Assembly (NCBI GenBank): GCA_017531225.1
Contig: JAFXLL010000011.1
Location: 122,769-186,768, forward strand
Length of the DNA: 64,000 nt
Direction: 5' to 3'
From: Bacteroidales bacterium
GTDB lineage: Bacteria; Bacteroidota; Bacteroidia; Bacteroidales; F082
How positions within the stretch are numbered: position 1 is the stretch's first letter; every line of letters starts with the position of its first letter. Position numbers and translations under genes: made by a program. The notes beneath the pieces are model-generated. The model searched no databases. It saw nothing but the letters and a program-made list of their open reading frames with translations, and was not told the origin of the DNA. This document shows positions 1 through 57,534 of the stretch, piece by piece.

Positions 1-1798
1 CGATGCTCTGGTTGGCCTTGGCTTCGTCAGTCATCTGATAAGCATCCCAAGCGATGTTGAGGCCACCGAGGTCAGCGATGTTCTCACCAAGGGTGAGCTC
101 ACCATTGATGTGGTTGCCGCGGAGTTCAAACTCGTTGAAGAGTTTCACGAGTTGTTGTGTGCGCTCTTTGAAGAGGGCAGCGTCTTCTTCGGTCCACCAG
201 TTATTGAGGTTACCTTTTTCGTCGTATTTGCAGCCCTGGTCGTCGAATCCGTGGGTCATTTCGTGACCGATCACCACGCCGATACCACCGTAGTTGACGG
301 CATCGTCAGCGTTTTGGTTGAAGAACGGAGGTTGAAGGATGCCAGCAGGGAACACGATCTCGTTCATCTCTGGGCTATAGTAAGCGTTTACAGTCTGAGG
401 TGTCATGAACCATTCCTCTTTGTCAACAGGTTTGCCGAGCTTGGCCATTTCGATTTCGTTTTCGAAACGGATGGCGCTGTGGATGTTTTGGAAATAGGAT
501 TCAGGAGTAACGATGTATTTTGAGTAATCCTTCCATTTGTTGGGATAACCCACTTTCACGTTGATGCAGCTAAGCTTGTTCAGGGCCTTGTCCTTGGTCT
601 CGTCGCTCATCCAATCGAGGGCCTTGATGCGTTCGCCAAGGGCGACTTTGAGGTTGGCTACGAGGCCTTCCATGCGCTCTTTGGCGGCAGCGGGGAAGTG
701 CTTTTCAACGTAGATCTGTCCGATGGCTTCGCCCAGGCATCCGTCAGTGGCGTTGAGCACGCGGCGCCAACGGGGCTGTTGCACTTCTTGGCCGTAGAGG
801 TAGTTGCTGTAGAAGTTGAAGTTTTCGGTCACGAAATCATCGCTCAGCATGGAGGCGCTTCCAGTGATGATCTTCCAGGTCAGATAATCCTTGATGGTGC
901 TGAGATCGGTGTTGAGGATGATGCCGTCGAGGGATGCGATGAAGTCAGGCATACCTACGTTGAGGCTCTCAAATTCAGGAGCACCGGCTTGGTTGAAATA
1001 AGTAACCCAGTTGAAATTCGGGGTGCTGTTTTGTAACTCAGCAAGAGTGCGCATGTTGTAGGTGCGATCGGGATCGCGGCGTTCCACACGGCTCAGTGAG
1101 TTCTTAGCCAGTTGAGTCTCGAGGTTGAGGATGGCTTGTGCCTTGGCAGTGGCGTTTTCGGCGTCCACACCGACCAATTGGAACATCTTGGAGACGTGCT
1201 CAACGTACTTGTCGCGCATCTCTTGTGATTCCTCAGTGAGGTAATCATCACGATCCGGCAGGCTCAGTCCACCTTGATACAGGTGCATGATGACCATGTC
1301 AGCGTTTTTCGGATCGGTGCTGGGGCCAGCGTAGAAGAAGCCGCCGAAGCCATCGCTGTGCAGCTTGCCCATCAGCTCGGCCAGTTGTGTCTTGTCATTC
1401 AGACCTTCCACCATCTCGAAATAGGGAAGGAGCTCGGTGTAACCACGCTCGTTGATGGCCACGGTGTCCATGCCGGCATTGTAGAAGTCGCGGATCTTCT
1501 GAGCCACGCTACCTTCAACGGCATTGGAATCGGCCGACACCTCTTTAATGATGTCTTGGATGAGTTGCTCGTTGTGCTGATCGATCTCAGTGAAGGCGCC
1601 ATAAGTGGTGTACTCCTCTGGTATTGGATTGTTTTTCAACCAGTTGTTGTTGCAATAACGGAAAAAGTCATCAGCGGGGTTGATGCTTAAATCCATGTTT
1701 TTCAAGTCGATAGCTGGAGTGCCTTTCTCTTCTTTCGGAGAGCAACCCCCAGCAATCATTGTTCCTGCTACCATCATAGCGATAAATGCTTTTTTCAT
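1..1798 (-). CDS. pepO: M13 family zinc endopeptidase (neprilysin/PepO-like), lipoprotein, 3' end cut by window
   Basis: The reverse strand reads open from ATG at 1798 to the window edge, so about 599 residues are present and the C-terminal part is missing. Residues 1-19 form a lipoprotein signal (MKKAF start, lipobox AGGC with Cys19), placing the enzyme on an outer membrane surface. The zinc motif HEMTH lies at bases 251-265, followed by the second M13 motif ENIADLGG, so both zinc-ligand sites of the gluzincin fold are present. M13 enzymes cut short peptides. The start lies 15 bases after the dnaX reading frame, with no promoter visible between, so it may be cotranscribed with dnaX. Confidence 0.93.
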   Translation of the reverse strand, partial: MKKAFIAMMVAGTMIAGGCSPKEEKGTPAIDLKNMDLSINPADDFFRYCNNNWLKNNPIPEEYTTYGAFTEIDQHNEQLIQDIIKEVSADSNAVEGSVAQKIRDFYNAGMDTVAINERGYTELLPYFEMVEGLNDKTQLAELMGKLHSDGFGGFFYAGPSTDPKNADMVIMHLYQGGLSLPDRDDYLTEESQEMRDKYVEHVSKMFQLVGVDAENATAKAQAILNLETQLAKNSLSRVERRDPDRTYNMRTLAELQNSTPNFNWVTYFNQAGAPEFESLNVGMPDFIASLDGIILNTDLSTIKDYLTWKIITGSASMLSDDFVTENFNFYSNYLYGQEVQQPRWRRVLNATDGCLGEAIGQIYVEKHFPAAAKERMEGLVANLKVALGERIKALDWMSDETKDKALNKLSCINVKVGYPNKWKDYSKYIVTPESYFQNIHSAIRFENEIEMAKLGKPVDKEEWFMTPQTVNAYYSPEMNEIVFPAGILQPPFFNQNADDAVNYGGIGVVIGHEMTHGFDDQGCKYDEKGNLNNWWTEEDAALFKERTQQLVKLFNEFELRGNHINGELTLGENIADLGGLNIAWDAYQMTDEAKANQSI

Positions 1799-52699: not shown

Positions 52700-53709
52700 C
52701 CTTCATCGATGACATATTGAATTACGACAGCCTGTCCATCGTGGGCTTGCAGAAGAACACTGGGAAGACCGTGAGTCTGAACTACGTGCTCGACCGCCTG
52801 CCTATTGATAGGAAGCGTATTGCCGTGACTTCAATTGGCATTGATGGAGAGACCACCGACCAAGTGACCCGGACGCAAAAGCCGGAGATCTACCTGCGCC
52901 AAGGGATGTATTTCGGCACGTCCGAGATGCACTACCGCCAGAAACGCATCGTCTCGGAGCTGATCGATGTCAGCGACGAGAACACCTCACTGGGTCGCGT
53001 GGTGACGGCCAAAGCCCTGACAGGAGGCAAGATCCTCCTGTCGGGACCTTCGTCGGCCAGCGGACTGAAACGCTGGATGAAAGACATGCACCGTGTGGGC
53101 CTCGACCTTGTGATTATCGACGGGGCCTTGTCACGGTTGAGCCTCGCTTCGCCCGCCGTGAGCCAAAGCATGATTTTGGCCACGGGTGCGGCTTATTCCA
53201 CTAACATGACCACCTTGGTCAACCAAACGGCCTTCATCGTGGAGTTGATCAACATCCCGCTCACCAGTGAGGAGCAACTGAAACTGCTGATGCCCATCGA
53301 GAAAGGCGTGTGGTTCGTGGATTCGAACGGTGCGCTGCACGAGATCAAGACGGTGTCGTCGCTGTCGCAAGAAATCCACTTCGAAGGCATGGACGACTGC
53401 AAAACACTCTATGTGGCGGGCGCGTTGGTGGACGGCTTCCTTGAGAAAGTAAGGAAGAATCCAAAGCTGAAAACTACTGAGTTGGTGGTGCGTGATTTCA
53501 CCAAAATCTTCGTGACACCCCAGCAGTATCGGCTGTTTTTGAAATTAGGCGGAAAGATCCGCGTACTACAAAAAAGCAAGTTGATCGCGGTGACCGTCAA
53601 CCCGACCTCGCCCTTGGGCGTGGTGCTCGACTCCGACACGCTTTGTGCCAAGTTGACGGAAGCCATTCACTTGCCAGTGTATGATTTGATGAAAGAGCAA
53701 TGCAATTGA
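52696..53709 (+). CDS. kamB: Lysine 5,6-aminomutase reactivase subunit KamB
   Basis: 337 residues. A P-loop lies at residues 17-25 (GLQKNTGKT), followed by switch-like TSIGIDGE, and the body has GKILLSGPSSASG and LVIIDGALSR. Genes of this type sit next to a MutS-like gene in lysine-fermentation operons and, from prior work on such operons, the pair reactivates the B12 enzyme lysine 5,6-aminomutase by exchanging damaged cobalamin. It overlaps kamA by 4 bases and kamC by 10 bases, consistent with a complex. Confidence 0.85.
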   Translation: MTFIDDILNYDSLSIVGLQKNTGKTVSLNYVLDRLPIDRKRIAVTSIGIDGETTDQVTRTQKPEIYLRQGMYFGTSEMHYRQKRIVSELIDVSDENTSLGRVVTAKALTGGKILLSGPSSASGLKRWMKDMHRVGLDLVIIDGALSRLSLASPAVSQSMILATGAAYSTNMTTLVNQTAFIVELINIPLTSEEQLKLLMPIEKGVWFVDSNGALHEIKTVSSLSQEIHFEGMDDCKTLYVAGALVDGFLEKVRKNPKLKTTELVVRDFTKIFVTPQQYRLFLKLGGKIRVLQKSKLIAVTVNPTSPLGVVLDSDTLCAKLTEAIHLPVYDLMKEQCN

Positions 53710-55130
53710 GAGACCACATAGAATCACCTTGCGGACTGCGTTACGTGTTCGAGCAGCTTGAACTTCAAGCGGGCTACACCCGTCGTTGGATGCTCGATAT
53801 GCCCATGATGCGGACAGGGGAGGAGATTGCCCAATCATACGAGGTACTGCGCCAGTTCGTCGATTTCTTGGGTCGGGTGGACACACCTTATATTAATACG
53901 ATTCAGTTCCGTCTTCAAGGACTGAAGGACATCCGCACGACCATTAAGAATTTAGGCCATCAGGCGGTGCTCGACGACATCGAGCTCTTCGAGGTGAAAC
54001 ACCTGGCCATCTTGGCTGTGGATGTGGCCGATCGCATGAAGACCCATGGTTTGGATCAAGCTGTCGAGATTCCCGACTTGAACGAGGTGATTACCATTTT
54101 GGATCCCGATGGTCTAAAGATGGCTTCGTTCTATGTCTACGATTCGTATTGCCAAGAATTGAAAGAGCTGCGCATTCAGATGCGCCAGCATCCCGATCAG
54201 CAGGAAGACTTGCTGGCAGAGTGCGCTGAGATCGAGGAAGGCGTGCGCCGCGACCTGAGCAAGCAGCTGTATCGCTTTGCGAAGCCTCTGGAAGAGGCGC
54301 AGATGGCGTTGGCGAGGATTGACATGAATCTGGCCAAGGCACTACAGATGAAACAGTTGGGATTGTGTTTCCCGACCATTTCGAAGGATGACACCAGCCG
54401 TTACGAGGCGATGTTCCATCCGCAGGTGAAGGACGCTCTGGCACAGCGCAAACGTGCGTTCCAGCCAGTCACCCTCACTTATGGGCTAAAGCCCACTTTG
54501 ATCACGGGCGCCAACATGGGAGGAAAGACCGTGGTCCTGAAGACCTTGACGTTGTGCCAGTACCTGTTCCAATACGGTTTTGGCATTCCGGCACAATCGG
54601 CCGACATCGCCGTCAAGGATGAGGTTTTCTTCTGCATCGGTGACGAGCAGTCCATCGAGAAGGGGCTGTCGTCGTTTGCGGCAGAGATGAAGAACATCGA
54701 TGCCGTCATCAAGGCATCGCGCGAAAACAGAAAGATAGTGGCGTTGATTGACGAGCCGGCGCGCACCACCAATCCCACCGAGGGAACGGCTTTGGTGTCT
54801 GCCTTGGTGAAGGTGTTGAGGGGCGACAATGTGAGTCTCGTCATGACCACGCATTACGATATAGAGCCGACCGATGCCCATTGCCTGCGGGTGAAGGGTT
54901 TCGAGAACGGCACGATGAACTACGAACTCGTGGAGGTGCAAGACGGCGAAGTGCCGCACGAGGCGCTGAACATCGCCGAGAGTTTGGGGATTGACAAGGA
55001 GTGGATTGAGACGGCGAGAGAGATTCTAAATATACCGAATTCGGTATATTTAACCCCATCGAATTCGAGGGGTTTAAAATCCAAAGGGGTCGAATTCGAC
55101 CCCCTTGGAGAGAAAGGAGGAAATGAGTAA
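53700..55130 (+). CDS. kamC: Lysine 5,6-aminomutase reactivase ATPase KamC (MutS-like)
   Basis: 476 residues. The C-terminal half is a MutS-type ABC ATPase: Walker A TGANMGGKTV (from about residue 269), the signature-like LSSFAAEMKNI, Walker B VALIDEPARTTNP (near 346) and the switch TTHYD. The mismatch-recognition domain of MutS is absent, so this is not a repair protein; with KamB it is the aminomutase reactivase. The last about 35 residues (from ILNIPNSVYL) are encoded by a cluster of GAATTC palindromes and look like an unusual tail, ending just where the KilA-N gene begins (TAATG overlap). Confidence 0.87.
   Translation: MQLRDHIESPCGLRYVFEQLELQAGYTRRWMLDMPMMRTGEEIAQSYEVLRQFVDFLGRVDTPYINTIQFRLQGLKDIRTTIKNLGHQAVLDDIELFEVKHLAILAVDVADRMKTHGLDQAVEIPDLNEVITILDPDGLKMASFYVYDSYCQELKELRIQMRQHPDQQEDLLAECAEIEEGVRRDLSKQLYRFAKPLEEAQMALARIDMNLAKALQMKQLGLCFPTISKDDTSRYEAMFHPQVKDALAQRKRAFQPVTLTYGLKPTLITGANMGGKTVVLKTLTLCQYLFQYGFGIPAQSADIAVKDEVFFCIGDEQSIEKGLSSFAAEMKNIDAVIKASRENRKIVALIDEPARTTNPTEGTALVSALVKVLRGDNVSLVMTTHYDIEPTDAHCLRVKGFENGTMNYELVEVQDGEVPHEALNIAESLGIDKEWIETAREILNIPNSVYLTPSNSRGLKSKGVEFDPLGEKGGNE
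55027..55108. repeat. Cluster of three GAATTC-centred palindromes
   Basis: P1 55027-55052 is a perfect 26-bp palindrome centred on CCGAATTCGG. P2, about 55052-55074, is ACCCC-a-TCGAATTCGA-GGGGT with one bulged base. P3 55081-55108 is a 28-bp palindrome centred on TCGAATTCGA with one mismatched pair. They lie in the 3' end of kamC, directly upstream of the KilA-N gene, and P2 shares its core with a fourth palindrome inside that gene. Possible operators or cruciform elements. Confidence 0.8.
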
Positions 55131-55942
55131 TGGCAAAAATGACTGTTCAAGATACGAGTATTACGATTCTTTCAATAGACAACAAGGATTACATTTCCTT
55201 GACGGATATTGCAAGGCACAAGACAGATGACCCCAATGCTGCCATCGGGAACTGGATGCGTAACCGTAATACGATTGAGTATTTGGGTATTTGGGAAGCA
55301 TTATACAATCCCAATTTTAAACCCCTCGAATTCGAGGGGTTTAGAAAGCAAGCAGGATTAAACGCTTTCACTATGTCACCCAAAAAATGGATTGATGCCA
55401 CTGATGCCATTGGTTTCATTGTAAAGTCTGGAAGATATTATGGCGGCACATACGCCCACAAAGACATTGCCTTCAAGTTTGCCAGTTGGATTTCGGTTGA
55501 GTTTGAATTGTATGTTGCCAAGGAATTCCAACGCTTAAAAGAAGAAGAACAAAAGCAACTCGGTTGGTCGGTGAAGCGCGAGTTGGCAAAGATAAACTAC
55601 CATATCCACACGGATGCTATAAAAGAGAATCTAGTCCCAGAAGAGATTGACCGTTATCATGCCTCTTTGATTTACGCCAACGAAGCCGATGTGCTGAATG
55701 TGGCCTTGTTTGGTGTGACGGCCAAGGAATGGCGCGATGCCAACCCCGACTTGAAGGGCAACATCCGCGACTATGCCAACATCAACCAACTGATTTGCCT
55801 CTCGAACATGGAAAACCTGAACGCGGTCTTTATTAATAAAGGTATGCCGCAACGCGATAGACTGATCGAACTGAACAAAATCGCCATTCAGCAGATGAAA
55901 GTGCTGGAGGGCGTGAATGATAGAAAGCTATTGAAGAATTGA
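55130..55942 (+). CDS. KilA-N domain protein inserted between kamC and kamD
   Basis: 270 residues. The KilA-N domain covers about 10-140: LSIDNKDYISLTDIARHK, NWMRNRNTIEYLGIWEAL, KWIDATDAIGFIVKSGRYYGGTYAHKDIAFKFASWIS, a pattern known from phage and DNA-virus DNA-binding proteins. The C-terminal half (YHASLIYANEADVLNVALFG, ANINQLICLSNMENLNAVFI) is a conserved partner region of this bacterial family. It has no role in lysine breakdown; AT-richer codon use than its neighbours points to acquisition. It overlaps the kamC stop, is 38 bases before kamD, and contains palindrome P4. Confidence 0.85.
   Translation: MAKMTVQDTSITILSIDNKDYISLTDIARHKTDDPNAAIGNWMRNRNTIEYLGIWEALYNPNFKPLEFEGFRKQAGLNAFTMSPKKWIDATDAIGFIVKSGRYYGGTYAHKDIAFKFASWISVEFELYVAKEFQRLKEEEQKQLGWSVKRELAKINYHIHTDAIKENLVPEEIDRYHASLIYANEADVLNVALFGVTAKEWRDANPDLKGNIRDYANINQLICLSNMENLNAVFINKGMPQRDRLIELNKIAIQQMKVLEGVNDRKLLKN
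55318..55343. repeat. Perfect 26-bp palindrome inside the KilA-N gene (P4)
   Basis: Centre GAATTC at 55328-55333 with arms TAAACCCCTC/GAGGGGTTTA. It encodes FKPLEFEGF, a segment in the middle of the KilA-N domain. The core matches P2 upstream of the gene. Confidence 0.85.
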
Positions 55943-55980: not shown

Positions 55981-57534
55981 ATGGAAAGTAAATTAGGACT
56001 TGATTTTAAGAAAGTGGAGTATGCCAGAGGGCTGGCGAAGAACATCGCTGATGATGTGCAGGCCTTCTGCGAGCAATACACCACGGTGGCCGTGGAGCGC
56101 ACCCTCGCCCGACTGATGGGCATCGACGGGGTGGACGAAAGCGATGTGCCGCTGCCCAATGTGGTGGTGGACGCCATCAAGGACAAAGGCGTGCTCGGCG
56201 AGGGCATCCTGTTCTTCATCGCCAACGCCATGATCCAGACAGGCCTCAACCCACAACAAATCGCCGAGAAGGTGGCCAAAGGCGAACTCGACATCACCAA
56301 GGTGGTGACGCGCGACCAGAAACTGATTGCCGACACCCTGCAACCCGTCATCGACGAGAGCCTGACGCGCATCCGCACTCGCCGCGCACGCCGTGAGCAT
56401 TATCTCGAGACCATCGGCGAAGGCCCCAAGCCTTACCTTTACATCATCGTGGCCACGGGTAACATCTACGAGGACGTGGTACAAGCCCAGGCCGGTGCCC
56501 GTCAGGGAGCCGACATCATCGCCGTGATCCGCACCACGGGTCAGAGCCTCTTGGACTATGTGCCTTATGGCGCCACCACCGAGGGCTTCGGCGGTACCTT
56601 CGCCACGCAGGAGAACTTCCGCATCATGCGTAAGGCCCTGGATGAAGTGGGCGAGGAGGTAGGCCGTTACATCCGCCTCTGCAACTACTGCTCGGGTCTC
56701 TGCATGCCTGAAATCGCCATCATGGGCGCTTTCGAAGGCCTCGATGTCATGCTGAACGACGCCCTCTACGGCATCCTGTTCCGCGACATCAACATGCAGC
56801 GCACCCTCATCGACCAATACATGAGCCGTATCATTAACGGCTTTGCGGGCGTCATCATCAACACGGGTGAGGACAACTACCTGACCACCGCCGACGCCGT
56901 GGAAGCCGCACACACCGTGTTGGCCTCCGACCTCATCAACGAGCAACTGGCCAAGATTGCCGGTCTGCCCGAAGAGCAGATGGGCTTGGGCCACGCCTTC
57001 GAGATGGACCCGATGCTCGAGAACGGCTTCCTCATGGAGCTCGCCCAGGCACAGATGACCCGCGAGATTTTCCCCAACGCACCGCTGAAATACATGCCGC
57101 CCACCAAGTTCATGACGGGCAACATCTTCCGTGGCCACATCCAGGATGCCCTTTTCAACATCATCGGCATCTGGACGCACCAAGGTCTGCAACTGCTGGG
57201 TATGCCTACCGAGGCTATCCACACGCCGTTCATGAGCGACCGTTACCTCTCCATCGAGAATGCCCGCTACATCTTCAACAACATGAAGGACATCGGCGCA
57301 GAGATGGAGTTCAAGGAAGGCGGTATCTGCCGTCAACGCGCCCACCTGGTGCTCGACAACACCATCAAGCTGCTTGAAGAACTCGTGAAGGAAGGCCTGT
57401 TCACCGCTTTGGAGAAAGGTATCTTCGGTGATGTGAAACGTCCGAAGAACGGCGGTAAGGGTCTGGCTGGCGTGACGCTGAAAGCAGAGAATTATTTGAA
57501 TCCGTTTGTTGAACTAATGAAAGGGAAGAAATAA
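55981..57534 (+). CDS. kamD: Lysine 5,6-aminomutase alpha subunit
   Basis: 517 residues. It forms, with KamE, the adenosylcobalamin/PLP enzyme that converts beta-lysine to 3,5-diaminohexanoate. A TIM-barrel subunit: YARGLAKNIADDVQ near the start, DIIAVIRTTGQSLLDYVPYGATTEGFGGT (about 179-207), CSGLCMPEIA and MPPTKFMTGNIFRGH. Length is as expected (about 515). One-base overlap with kamE (ATAATG). Confidence 0.95.
   Translation: MESKLGLDFKKVEYARGLAKNIADDVQAFCEQYTTVAVERTLARLMGIDGVDESDVPLPNVVVDAIKDKGVLGEGILFFIANAMIQTGLNPQQIAEKVAKGELDITKVVTRDQKLIADTLQPVIDESLTRIRTRRARREHYLETIGEGPKPYLYIIVATGNIYEDVVQAQAGARQGADIIAVIRTTGQSLLDYVPYGATTEGFGGTFATQENFRIMRKALDEVGEEVGRYIRLCNYCSGLCMPEIAIMGAFEGLDVMLNDALYGILFRDINMQRTLIDQYMSRIINGFAGVIINTGEDNYLTTADAVEAAHTVLASDLINEQLAKIAGLPEEQMGLGHAFEMDPMLENGFLMELAQAQMTREIFPNAPLKYMPPTKFMTGNIFRGHIQDALFNIIGIWTHQGLQLLGMPTEAIHTPFMSDRYLSIENARYIFNNMKDIGAEMEFKEGGICRQRAHLVLDNTIKLLEELVKEGLFTALEKGIFGDVKRPKNGGKGLAGVTLKAENYLNPFVELMKGKK

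Follow-up and report, generated by a model that had tools for sequence, protein, structure and literature searches.

BstA is a prophage defence protein of two domains with a KilA-N-like N-terminus, its gene often lies downstream of the prophage repressor, and a 63-bp DNA element named aba, which overlaps the start of bstA and acts as DNA, shields the prophage from BstA, according to Owen et al. 2021 (PMC8585504). In the same text, each tested BstA answered only its own aba, and the defence activity was broadly interchangeable (PMC8585504). We analysed a 64-kb stretch of DNA (the window; contig JAFXLL010000011.1, positions 122,769 to 186,768) from the genome of a Bacteroidales bacterium (2.58 Mb, 14 contigs), in which a lysine-fermentation operon (KamB, KamC, lysine 5,6-aminomutase) is interrupted by a gene encoding a KilA-N protein, with a palindrome inside its coding sequence. 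This locus resembles BstA and aba, as they are presented in that text, in having a KilA-N or KilA-N-like N-terminus joined to a C-terminal part, and a short DNA element inside its own locus. The palindrome inside the gene is very probably a DNA site bound by the encoded protein, presumably as a dimer. By comparison of sequences, the N-terminal part of the protein (hereafter the reader, residues 1 to ~140, with a predicted helix-turn-helix) is encoded by the DNA which holds the 32-bp palindrome, and the palindrome arms co-vary with the predicted recognition helix. The gene, its parts and the four palindromes (P1 to P4) are as follows.

55130 to 55942, plus strand: KilA-N gene of 270 amino acids (open reading frame), matching PF04383, the PADLOC candidate phage-defence family PDC-S22 and PHROG 2657
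55130 to 55549, plus strand: reader domain, residues 1-140, exchanged along with P4 between relatives
55217 to 55252, plus strand: putative specificity residues, codons 30-41, the loop and first part of the predicted recognition helix (from mutual information, prediction windows and AlphaFold2 helices)
55358 to 55393, plus strand: secondary correlated segment, codons 77-88 (residue window 74-85 predicts arms at 0.767; residues 79, 81 and 86 are in the mutual-information list)
55577 to 55936, plus strand: C-terminal domain, residues 150-269, with protein identity of 0.90-0.98 among kam-locus copies of other types
55315 to 55346, no strand: P4, the in-gene palindrome and putative cognate self site; 32 bp with 1 mismatch, perfect over 26 bp (55318-55343), in codons 62-73 (FKPLEFEGFR)
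55027 to 55052, no strand: P1, upstream; 26 bp, perfect, of TATACC type, which is not the gene's own type
55049 to 55078, no strand: P2, upstream; 30 bp with 2 mismatches, half-sites CCCCTC (own type) and CCCATC
55080 to 55109, no strand: P3, upstream; 30 bp with 1 mismatch, perfect 18-bp core at 55086-55103, of GGGGTC type, which is not the gene's own

P1-P3 are located between the end of kamC and the start of the KilA-N gene, and P4 is located in frame inside the gene. All four are centred on GAATTC, and TCGAATTCGAGGGGTTTA is common to P2 and P4. A preliminary description of this DNA had reported just this arrangement, three palindromes before the gene and one perfect 26-bp palindrome inside it with a core common to P2 and P4, and we found it again at 55027-55346. 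It had also regarded such symmetry as unlikely by chance, and the counts agree. The window has three perfect palindromes of at least 18 bp, all within the P1-P4 cluster, and two of these have at least 26 bp; in 60 first-order Markov simulations the former class averaged 0.27 and the latter did not occur. The possibility that identical palindromes are scattered randomly in the genome was contradicted, because the two patterns searched showed no dispersal through the source genome: CCCCTCGAATTCGAGGGG with at most 3 mismatches matched P4, P2 and one other place with a different centre, and CGAATTCG with A/T at both ends of the 26-mer gave five matches, namely P1, P2, P4 and two non-palindromic places, P3 being outside this pattern.

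The in-gene palindrome is present throughout the homologous genes. The main set had 156 distinct genes, with matches spanning from residue 55 or earlier to residue 110 or later and one row per identical gene, and its records belonged to Bacteroidota, Treponema, Lentisphaerae, Streptococcus satellites and others. All 156 genes (47-100% identity) have a palindrome of 10-16 of 16 pairs centred on one and the same codon pair, so the absence of palindromes from homologous KilA-N genes, which had been named as a ground for rejecting the idea, was contradicted as well. Homologues were retrieved by routes mostly blind to the palindrome (whole-protein search, and peptide patterns located outside it). 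The exceptions are five genes (L164, L225-L228), retrieved through a palindrome pattern; with these left out, all 151 others still score 10-16. Some loci for closer inspection were picked by hand from the match lists. Of 32,265 other codon boundaries in these genes, 108 scored at least 10. Pairing extends to position 16 except position 14 (0.45) and falls to 0.13 at position 17 (112 genes). In the taxonomic family of the source genome, a homologue or fragment was present in 88 of the 174 genomes searched; the source genome itself has a single KilA-N gene.

The palindrome sequence varies between genes and its symmetry is retained. There are 31 arm types in 150 proteins, some of them one base apart, and the left-arm types include CCCCTC, CCTATC, TATGGC, TATACC, GGGGTC, GTGGTC, CTGGTC, CCTGTC, TGCCTC and GTTACG. 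The AATT centre is kept, and the central E and F codons are nearly invariant. Among 85 distinct 32-mers, 13.71 of 16 pairs were symmetric, and when the peptides were recoded with synonymous codons the value was 8.74 (sd 0.15). In these 32-mers 91.1% of cells were paired, and the covariation score was 0.390 against 0.140 (sd 0.007) when shuffled and at most 0.130 when slid.

PF04383 matched the window protein with 77 bits, above the Pfam gathering cut-off of 23.8, and covered only residues 7-138, and the matching PHROG 2657 is annotated as "transcriptional regulator". The identity profile places the boundary between the KilA-N N-terminus and a separate C-terminal domain near residue 140. The C-terminal domain lies outside the Pfam match, and it had neither an NCBIfam match nor, at E up to 1, a PDB sequence match. 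In the AlphaFold2 model, helices 24-31 and 35-43 form a predicted helix-turn-helix, the second helix of which begins at the residues with the top mutual information given below, and residues 140-165 have low confidence.

The arms follow the predicted recognition helix. Distance, prediction and parsimony analyses used 150 distinct full-length proteins of 151. The distance between N-terminal domains, excluding residues coded by the palindrome, was correlated with palindrome distance (r 0.74); the partial r was 0.74 with C-terminal distance held constant, a value reached by 0 of 999 permutations (highest 0.15), and the reverse partial was -0.23. Outside the palindrome, residues 37, 40, 36, 30, 32 and 81 had the top excess mutual information with palindrome type. 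When arms were predicted from neighbours with C-terminal identity below 65%, residues 30-41 gave an identity of 0.839, the C-terminus 0.505 and random choice 0.474. Among 12-residue windows outside the palindrome the best were 26-37 (0.832) and 32-43 (0.846), and window 50-61, closer to the palindrome, gave only 0.590. The prediction climbs again at 74-85 (0.767) and 110-133 (0.71-0.75), and is 0.41-0.57 from residue 134. Linkage alone would not account for the shape of this profile. In addition, arm position 6 is G in 17 of 19 distinct units with aspartate before the helix core (D units) versus 8 of 81 others (Fisher value 2e-11, which counts units with common ancestry as independent); this helix-pattern typing covered 141 of the 151 proteins.

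Relatives at the kam locus have a C-terminus like that of the window gene and different readers. Third-position identity to the window gene was 0.42-0.50 for residues 1-135 versus 0.80-0.86 for residues 140-266 in L023, L027, L126 and L185 (TATGGC) and in L137 and L180 (GGGGTC). The contrast was weaker in L169 (CCTATC; 0.67/0.84) and L197 (TATACC; 0.36/0.66), and L196 (GTGGTC) showed none (0.46/0.50). Relatives of the same type had 0.76/0.68 (L176), 0.62/0.83 (L190) and 0.63/0.71 (L012). By parsimony, the C-terminal FastTree tree required 69 changes of palindrome type and the reader tree 42. From these alignments, reader and site are exchanged together on a similar C-terminus at the kam locus. 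The palindromes had also been proposed as recombination sites used for the insertion. Where types differ between otherwise similar genes, the reader is different to the left and to the right of the palindrome alike; this speaks against crossovers there, and the proposal is not supported.

Viral contigs, phages and plasmids gave independent checks. At 55 loci on viral contigs (matches at L354, L355 and L356 do not span the site) we found 26 further distinct sites with 12-16 of 16 pairs, and in L302 the arms are retained though the GAATTC centre has been lost. For 22 full-length viral-contig genes, residues 30-41 predicted the arms from the first set at 0.747, the C-terminus at 0.420 and random choice at 0.449. 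Prediction failed for L314 and L340 (0.29 each), whose helix motifs are absent from the first set. The palindrome is also present, with 14 of 16 pairs each, in phage EW and in plasmids of Photorhabdus, Aeromonas and Streptococcus agalactiae. In one lineage, the sole such lineage seen, the in-gene palindrome is absent: L381, a gene of Latilactobacillus which also occurs on viral contigs L383 and L384, has 3 of 16 pairs at the aligned site. This lineage has TAAACCCGTCGAAATCGACGGGTTTA upstream, centred 31 bases before the start (-31), a palindrome of CCCGTC type in the leader just before a ribosome-binding-like sequence. Two genes with in-gene palindromes of CCCGTC type, L387 and L305, have helix motifs (PNDAIRNW and PDDLIRNW, respectively) like that of L381 (PNDLIRNW). 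Therefore, the type goes with the helix even outside the coding sequence.

The window protein matched PDC-S22 of PADLOC-DB 2.0.0 with 437.9 bits (3e-132; residues 3-268, profile 6-273 of 281), and the same profile matched four of four other homologues tried. PDC-S22 is a library entry without description, and an in-gene site or a specificity code has no mention there. BstA and the window protein belong to different PADLOC models (BstA vs PDC-S22), and the BstA model gave no match to the window protein at E up to 10. Homologues of the window protein include Bacteroidota, Bacillota and Gammaproteobacteria records. A very remote relation to BstA is still conceivable. By analogy, the family would work like BstA/aba, its nearest known precedent in logic; we class it as BstA-like in working and not as BstA, because no sequence homology was found. 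Among the BstA genes themselves (L417-L480), short direct repeats around the bstA start appear by eye to differ by subtype (CCCGCC, CCACC, GGTCAAC).

In phage EW and in two satellites, Javan588 and Javan279, the KilA-N gene is part of the lysogeny module, with the repressor side on one flank and the integrase on the other; the repressor is directly adjacent in the two satellites and one gene further in phage EW. No repressor adjoins the KilA-N gene in the window. In the complete elements EW (45 kb), Javan588 (9 kb) and Javan97 (15.7 kb) there was no other match to the in-gene site within 6 mismatches of 24.

Taken by analogy with BstA, an anti-phage protein of the same kind of logic is an even guess or slightly better. 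Reader and site would travel as one unit, so that a change of specificity keeps the match intact, and the C-terminus would perform the defence work. The in-gene site would be a self-mark like aba. When DNA carrying the gene is present at many copies, as when its host element replicates, the site would engage the protein and the element would be spared. Selection against other elements borrowing the mark could then produce many specificities on one effector part. We consider a cognate in-gene site combined with BstA-like self-mark defence to be the best overall explanation, with a rough probability of 0.6; we infer the function, self-immunity or autorepression.

Several points weigh against this explanation. 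BstA of BTP1 has no significant homology with the window protein (BLASTP E 1.9; hhalign probability 0.2%, E 0.31, for profiles of 54 and 22 rows, the 54-row profile being shallow). The start codon of bstA lies within aba, and aba is bounded by direct repeats, whereas the element here is a palindrome within codons 62-73. The PADLOC label PDC means candidate and not proven defence. The window gene sits in a metabolic operon, and the neighbours checked are metabolic genes; Javan97 has an XRE regulator before the gene and no adjoining integrase, and Javan625 has neither. The AlphaFold2 model is middling (pTM 0.49). Linkage must explain part of the correlation between reader and palindrome, because the palindrome is inside the reader coding sequence, and two of five covariation measures (doubly changed pairs and pair types) were not above shuffles. 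Avoidance of a shared type among co-resident copies is not clear, as 3 of 29 pairs were within one mismatch and 4.0 were expected (P 0.41). The exact 20-mer of the commonest type was located at 17 places in viral contigs, 16 of them outside KilA-N genes. Finally, the self-mark model does not explain P1-P3 and similar arrays, which are mostly of other types. The preliminary description had suggested all four palindromes as binding sites for the encoded protein. The suggestion gains strong sequence support for P4, from arms that co-vary with the predicted recognition helix across phyla and from the upstream site of L381, and not for P1-P3, since the gene's own type was among the upstream palindromes at 11 of 32 loci versus 10.8 expected by shuffling.

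Autoregulation is the main rival: the protein would bind the palindrome in its own gene, block transcription and keep its own level low, and no defence role would be needed. It fits the match between reader and site, the lack of a second close site in the three complete elements scanned, and the L381 site, centred at -31 in the leader, which is a usual place for an operator. Such autorepression may hold together with self-immunity. Alone, it leaves the frequent change of reader and site relative to the C-terminus (69 vs 42 parsimony changes) unexplained, and promoter-like sites were not above the shuffled number; we regard it as a serious but rather unlikely explanation. An RNA hairpin, which the preliminary description had also considered, would be a stem-loop of the mRNA for translation control or stability, perhaps bound by the encoded protein. 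Varying arms with constant complementarity would suit a stem, the L381 copy and P3 adjoin the ribosome-binding region, and several of the 16 viral-contig 20-mer places outside KilA-N genes look terminator-like by eye. However, G-U mismatches are not in excess over A-C, either in the gene (17 vs 34 cells) or upstream (12 vs 16); moreover, the AATT centre is kept, for which a loop would have no need, and the signal is located on the predicted DNA-recognition helix. So the hairpin is disfavoured and appears improbable.

A mobile or recombinogenic palindrome (REP-like, an in-frame palindromic element or a cassette attachment site) might have come to lie in the gene by chance, and this could be matched with the similar vocabulary of the upstream arrays and with the kamC-kamD junction as an insertion hotspot. 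This explanation is very improbable: the palindrome is confined to the same codon pair of one gene family, the patterns searched are not dispersed in the source genome, and the flanks change along with the palindrome. Across 395 genomes, five of five Bacteroidota places with the 24-mer of the commonest type were inside KilA-N genes, and none of the best 30 RhuM loci had such a palindrome. REP/RAYT systems have dispersed copies, and palindromes beside a Y1 transposase, and neither was found here for the patterns searched; three of three Y1_Tnp loci of the source genome were without them. In-frame palindromic elements of the Rickettsia RPE type insert into many unrelated genes, unlike the palindrome here at one codon pair of one family. 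RhuM genes as such were common, in 137 of 174 genomes of the source genome's family with up to 11 matches apiece. Last, the symmetry could be an accidental by-product of protein constraint, the peptide FKxxEFxxF dictating the codons. The nearly invariant central E and F codons would agree with this; most of the excess symmetry disappeared after synonymous recoding, and the L381 site of expected type lies outside the coding sequence, so the idea is hardly credible.

Two further systems may be compared with the self-mark explanation. In Type I restriction, the target-recognition domains of HsdS are swapped. The likeness is a DNA-reading domain exchanged on a constant partner, and the difference is that here the putative recognised site is carried inside the exchanged segment. 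In PCG2, a KilA-N/APSES protein like Mbp1, the wing makes most base contacts (PMC4333399), whereas in the present family the strongest specificity signal comes from the second helix of the predicted helix-turn-helix. Among the matches listed from the open-licence PMC literature (titles and abstract openings, with subscription papers and preprints outside this scope), none described a cognate palindrome inside KilA-N genes.

The neighbours of the gene in the operon are the following.

53700 to 55130, plus strand: kamC frame, upstream operon neighbour (open reading frame); the KamC model match stops at residue 443 of 476
55981 to 57534, plus strand: lysine 5,6-aminomutase alpha subunit gene, downstream operon neighbour (open reading frame and profile)

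Profile matches on both sides gave the order KamB, KamC (NF052383), KilA-N and lysine 5,6-aminomutase alpha subunit (NF052384), so the gene does separate kamC from kamD, as had been stated. The read-through 3' end of the kamC frame is overlapped by P1-P3. Forty kamC-kamD regions were taken, with both ends located in 28. The junction was empty (42 nt) in L194, L198, L199 and L205, had 79 nt in L187, and carried an insert of 0.77-3.55 kb in 23. Besides KilA-N, the occupants were a YhcG gene (PDC-S02, L166), a RhuM gene (PDC-S05, L188) and a GmrSD-like gene (L182); therefore, the junction looks like a small insertion hotspot for candidate defence genes. KilA-N remnants holding only the last 32-35 matched codons were seen at 820-915 in L170, 798-902 in L173, 1981-2085 in L178 and 1897-1995 in L188 (coordinates in the orientation used for the kamC-kamD region analysis), those in L170, L173 and L188 directly behind the upstream palindrome array.

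Upstream palindromes were present at 32 of 154 loci examined. P1-P3 and similar arrays are probably functional, because they stay well paired. At the kam locus the upstream arrays often contain 2-4 different specificity types, with recurring centres at -35, -66, -90 and others, and such arrays also precede the YhcG (L166), RhuM (L188) and GmrSD-like (L182) genes. In viral contigs L149-L163 and L165 this 20-bp palindrome of the commonest type occurs outside KilA-N genes, several copies lying between a stop codon and a T run, terminator-like by eye. Two related operons differ at the same junction: L207 has one GAATTC palindrome between genes, and L208 has two palindromes and an extra lone gene (AlbA_2-like by eye).

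If the self-mark explanation is true, recombination would yield new matched immunity types in one step, and several foreign types would have their sites in arrays such as P1-P3. Immunity groups would be predictable from sequence across phyla through a residue-to-base code, for example one that links D before the helix core to G at the sixth arm base. With 31 arm types among 150 proteins with matched readers, recognition and self/non-self logic would be testable by simple swaps. With the target inside its own gene, a DNA-binding protein would also have a route to a change of specificity without loss of that target. For a candidate defence family which is common in the source genome's taxonomic family, this is a hypothesis founded on mechanism. 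Tentatively, and with the odds somewhat against it, the family might be a second class of self-marking anti-phage protein beside BstA, and apparently unrelated to it, in which the reading head and the "self" DNA word are encoded by the same stretch of DNA.

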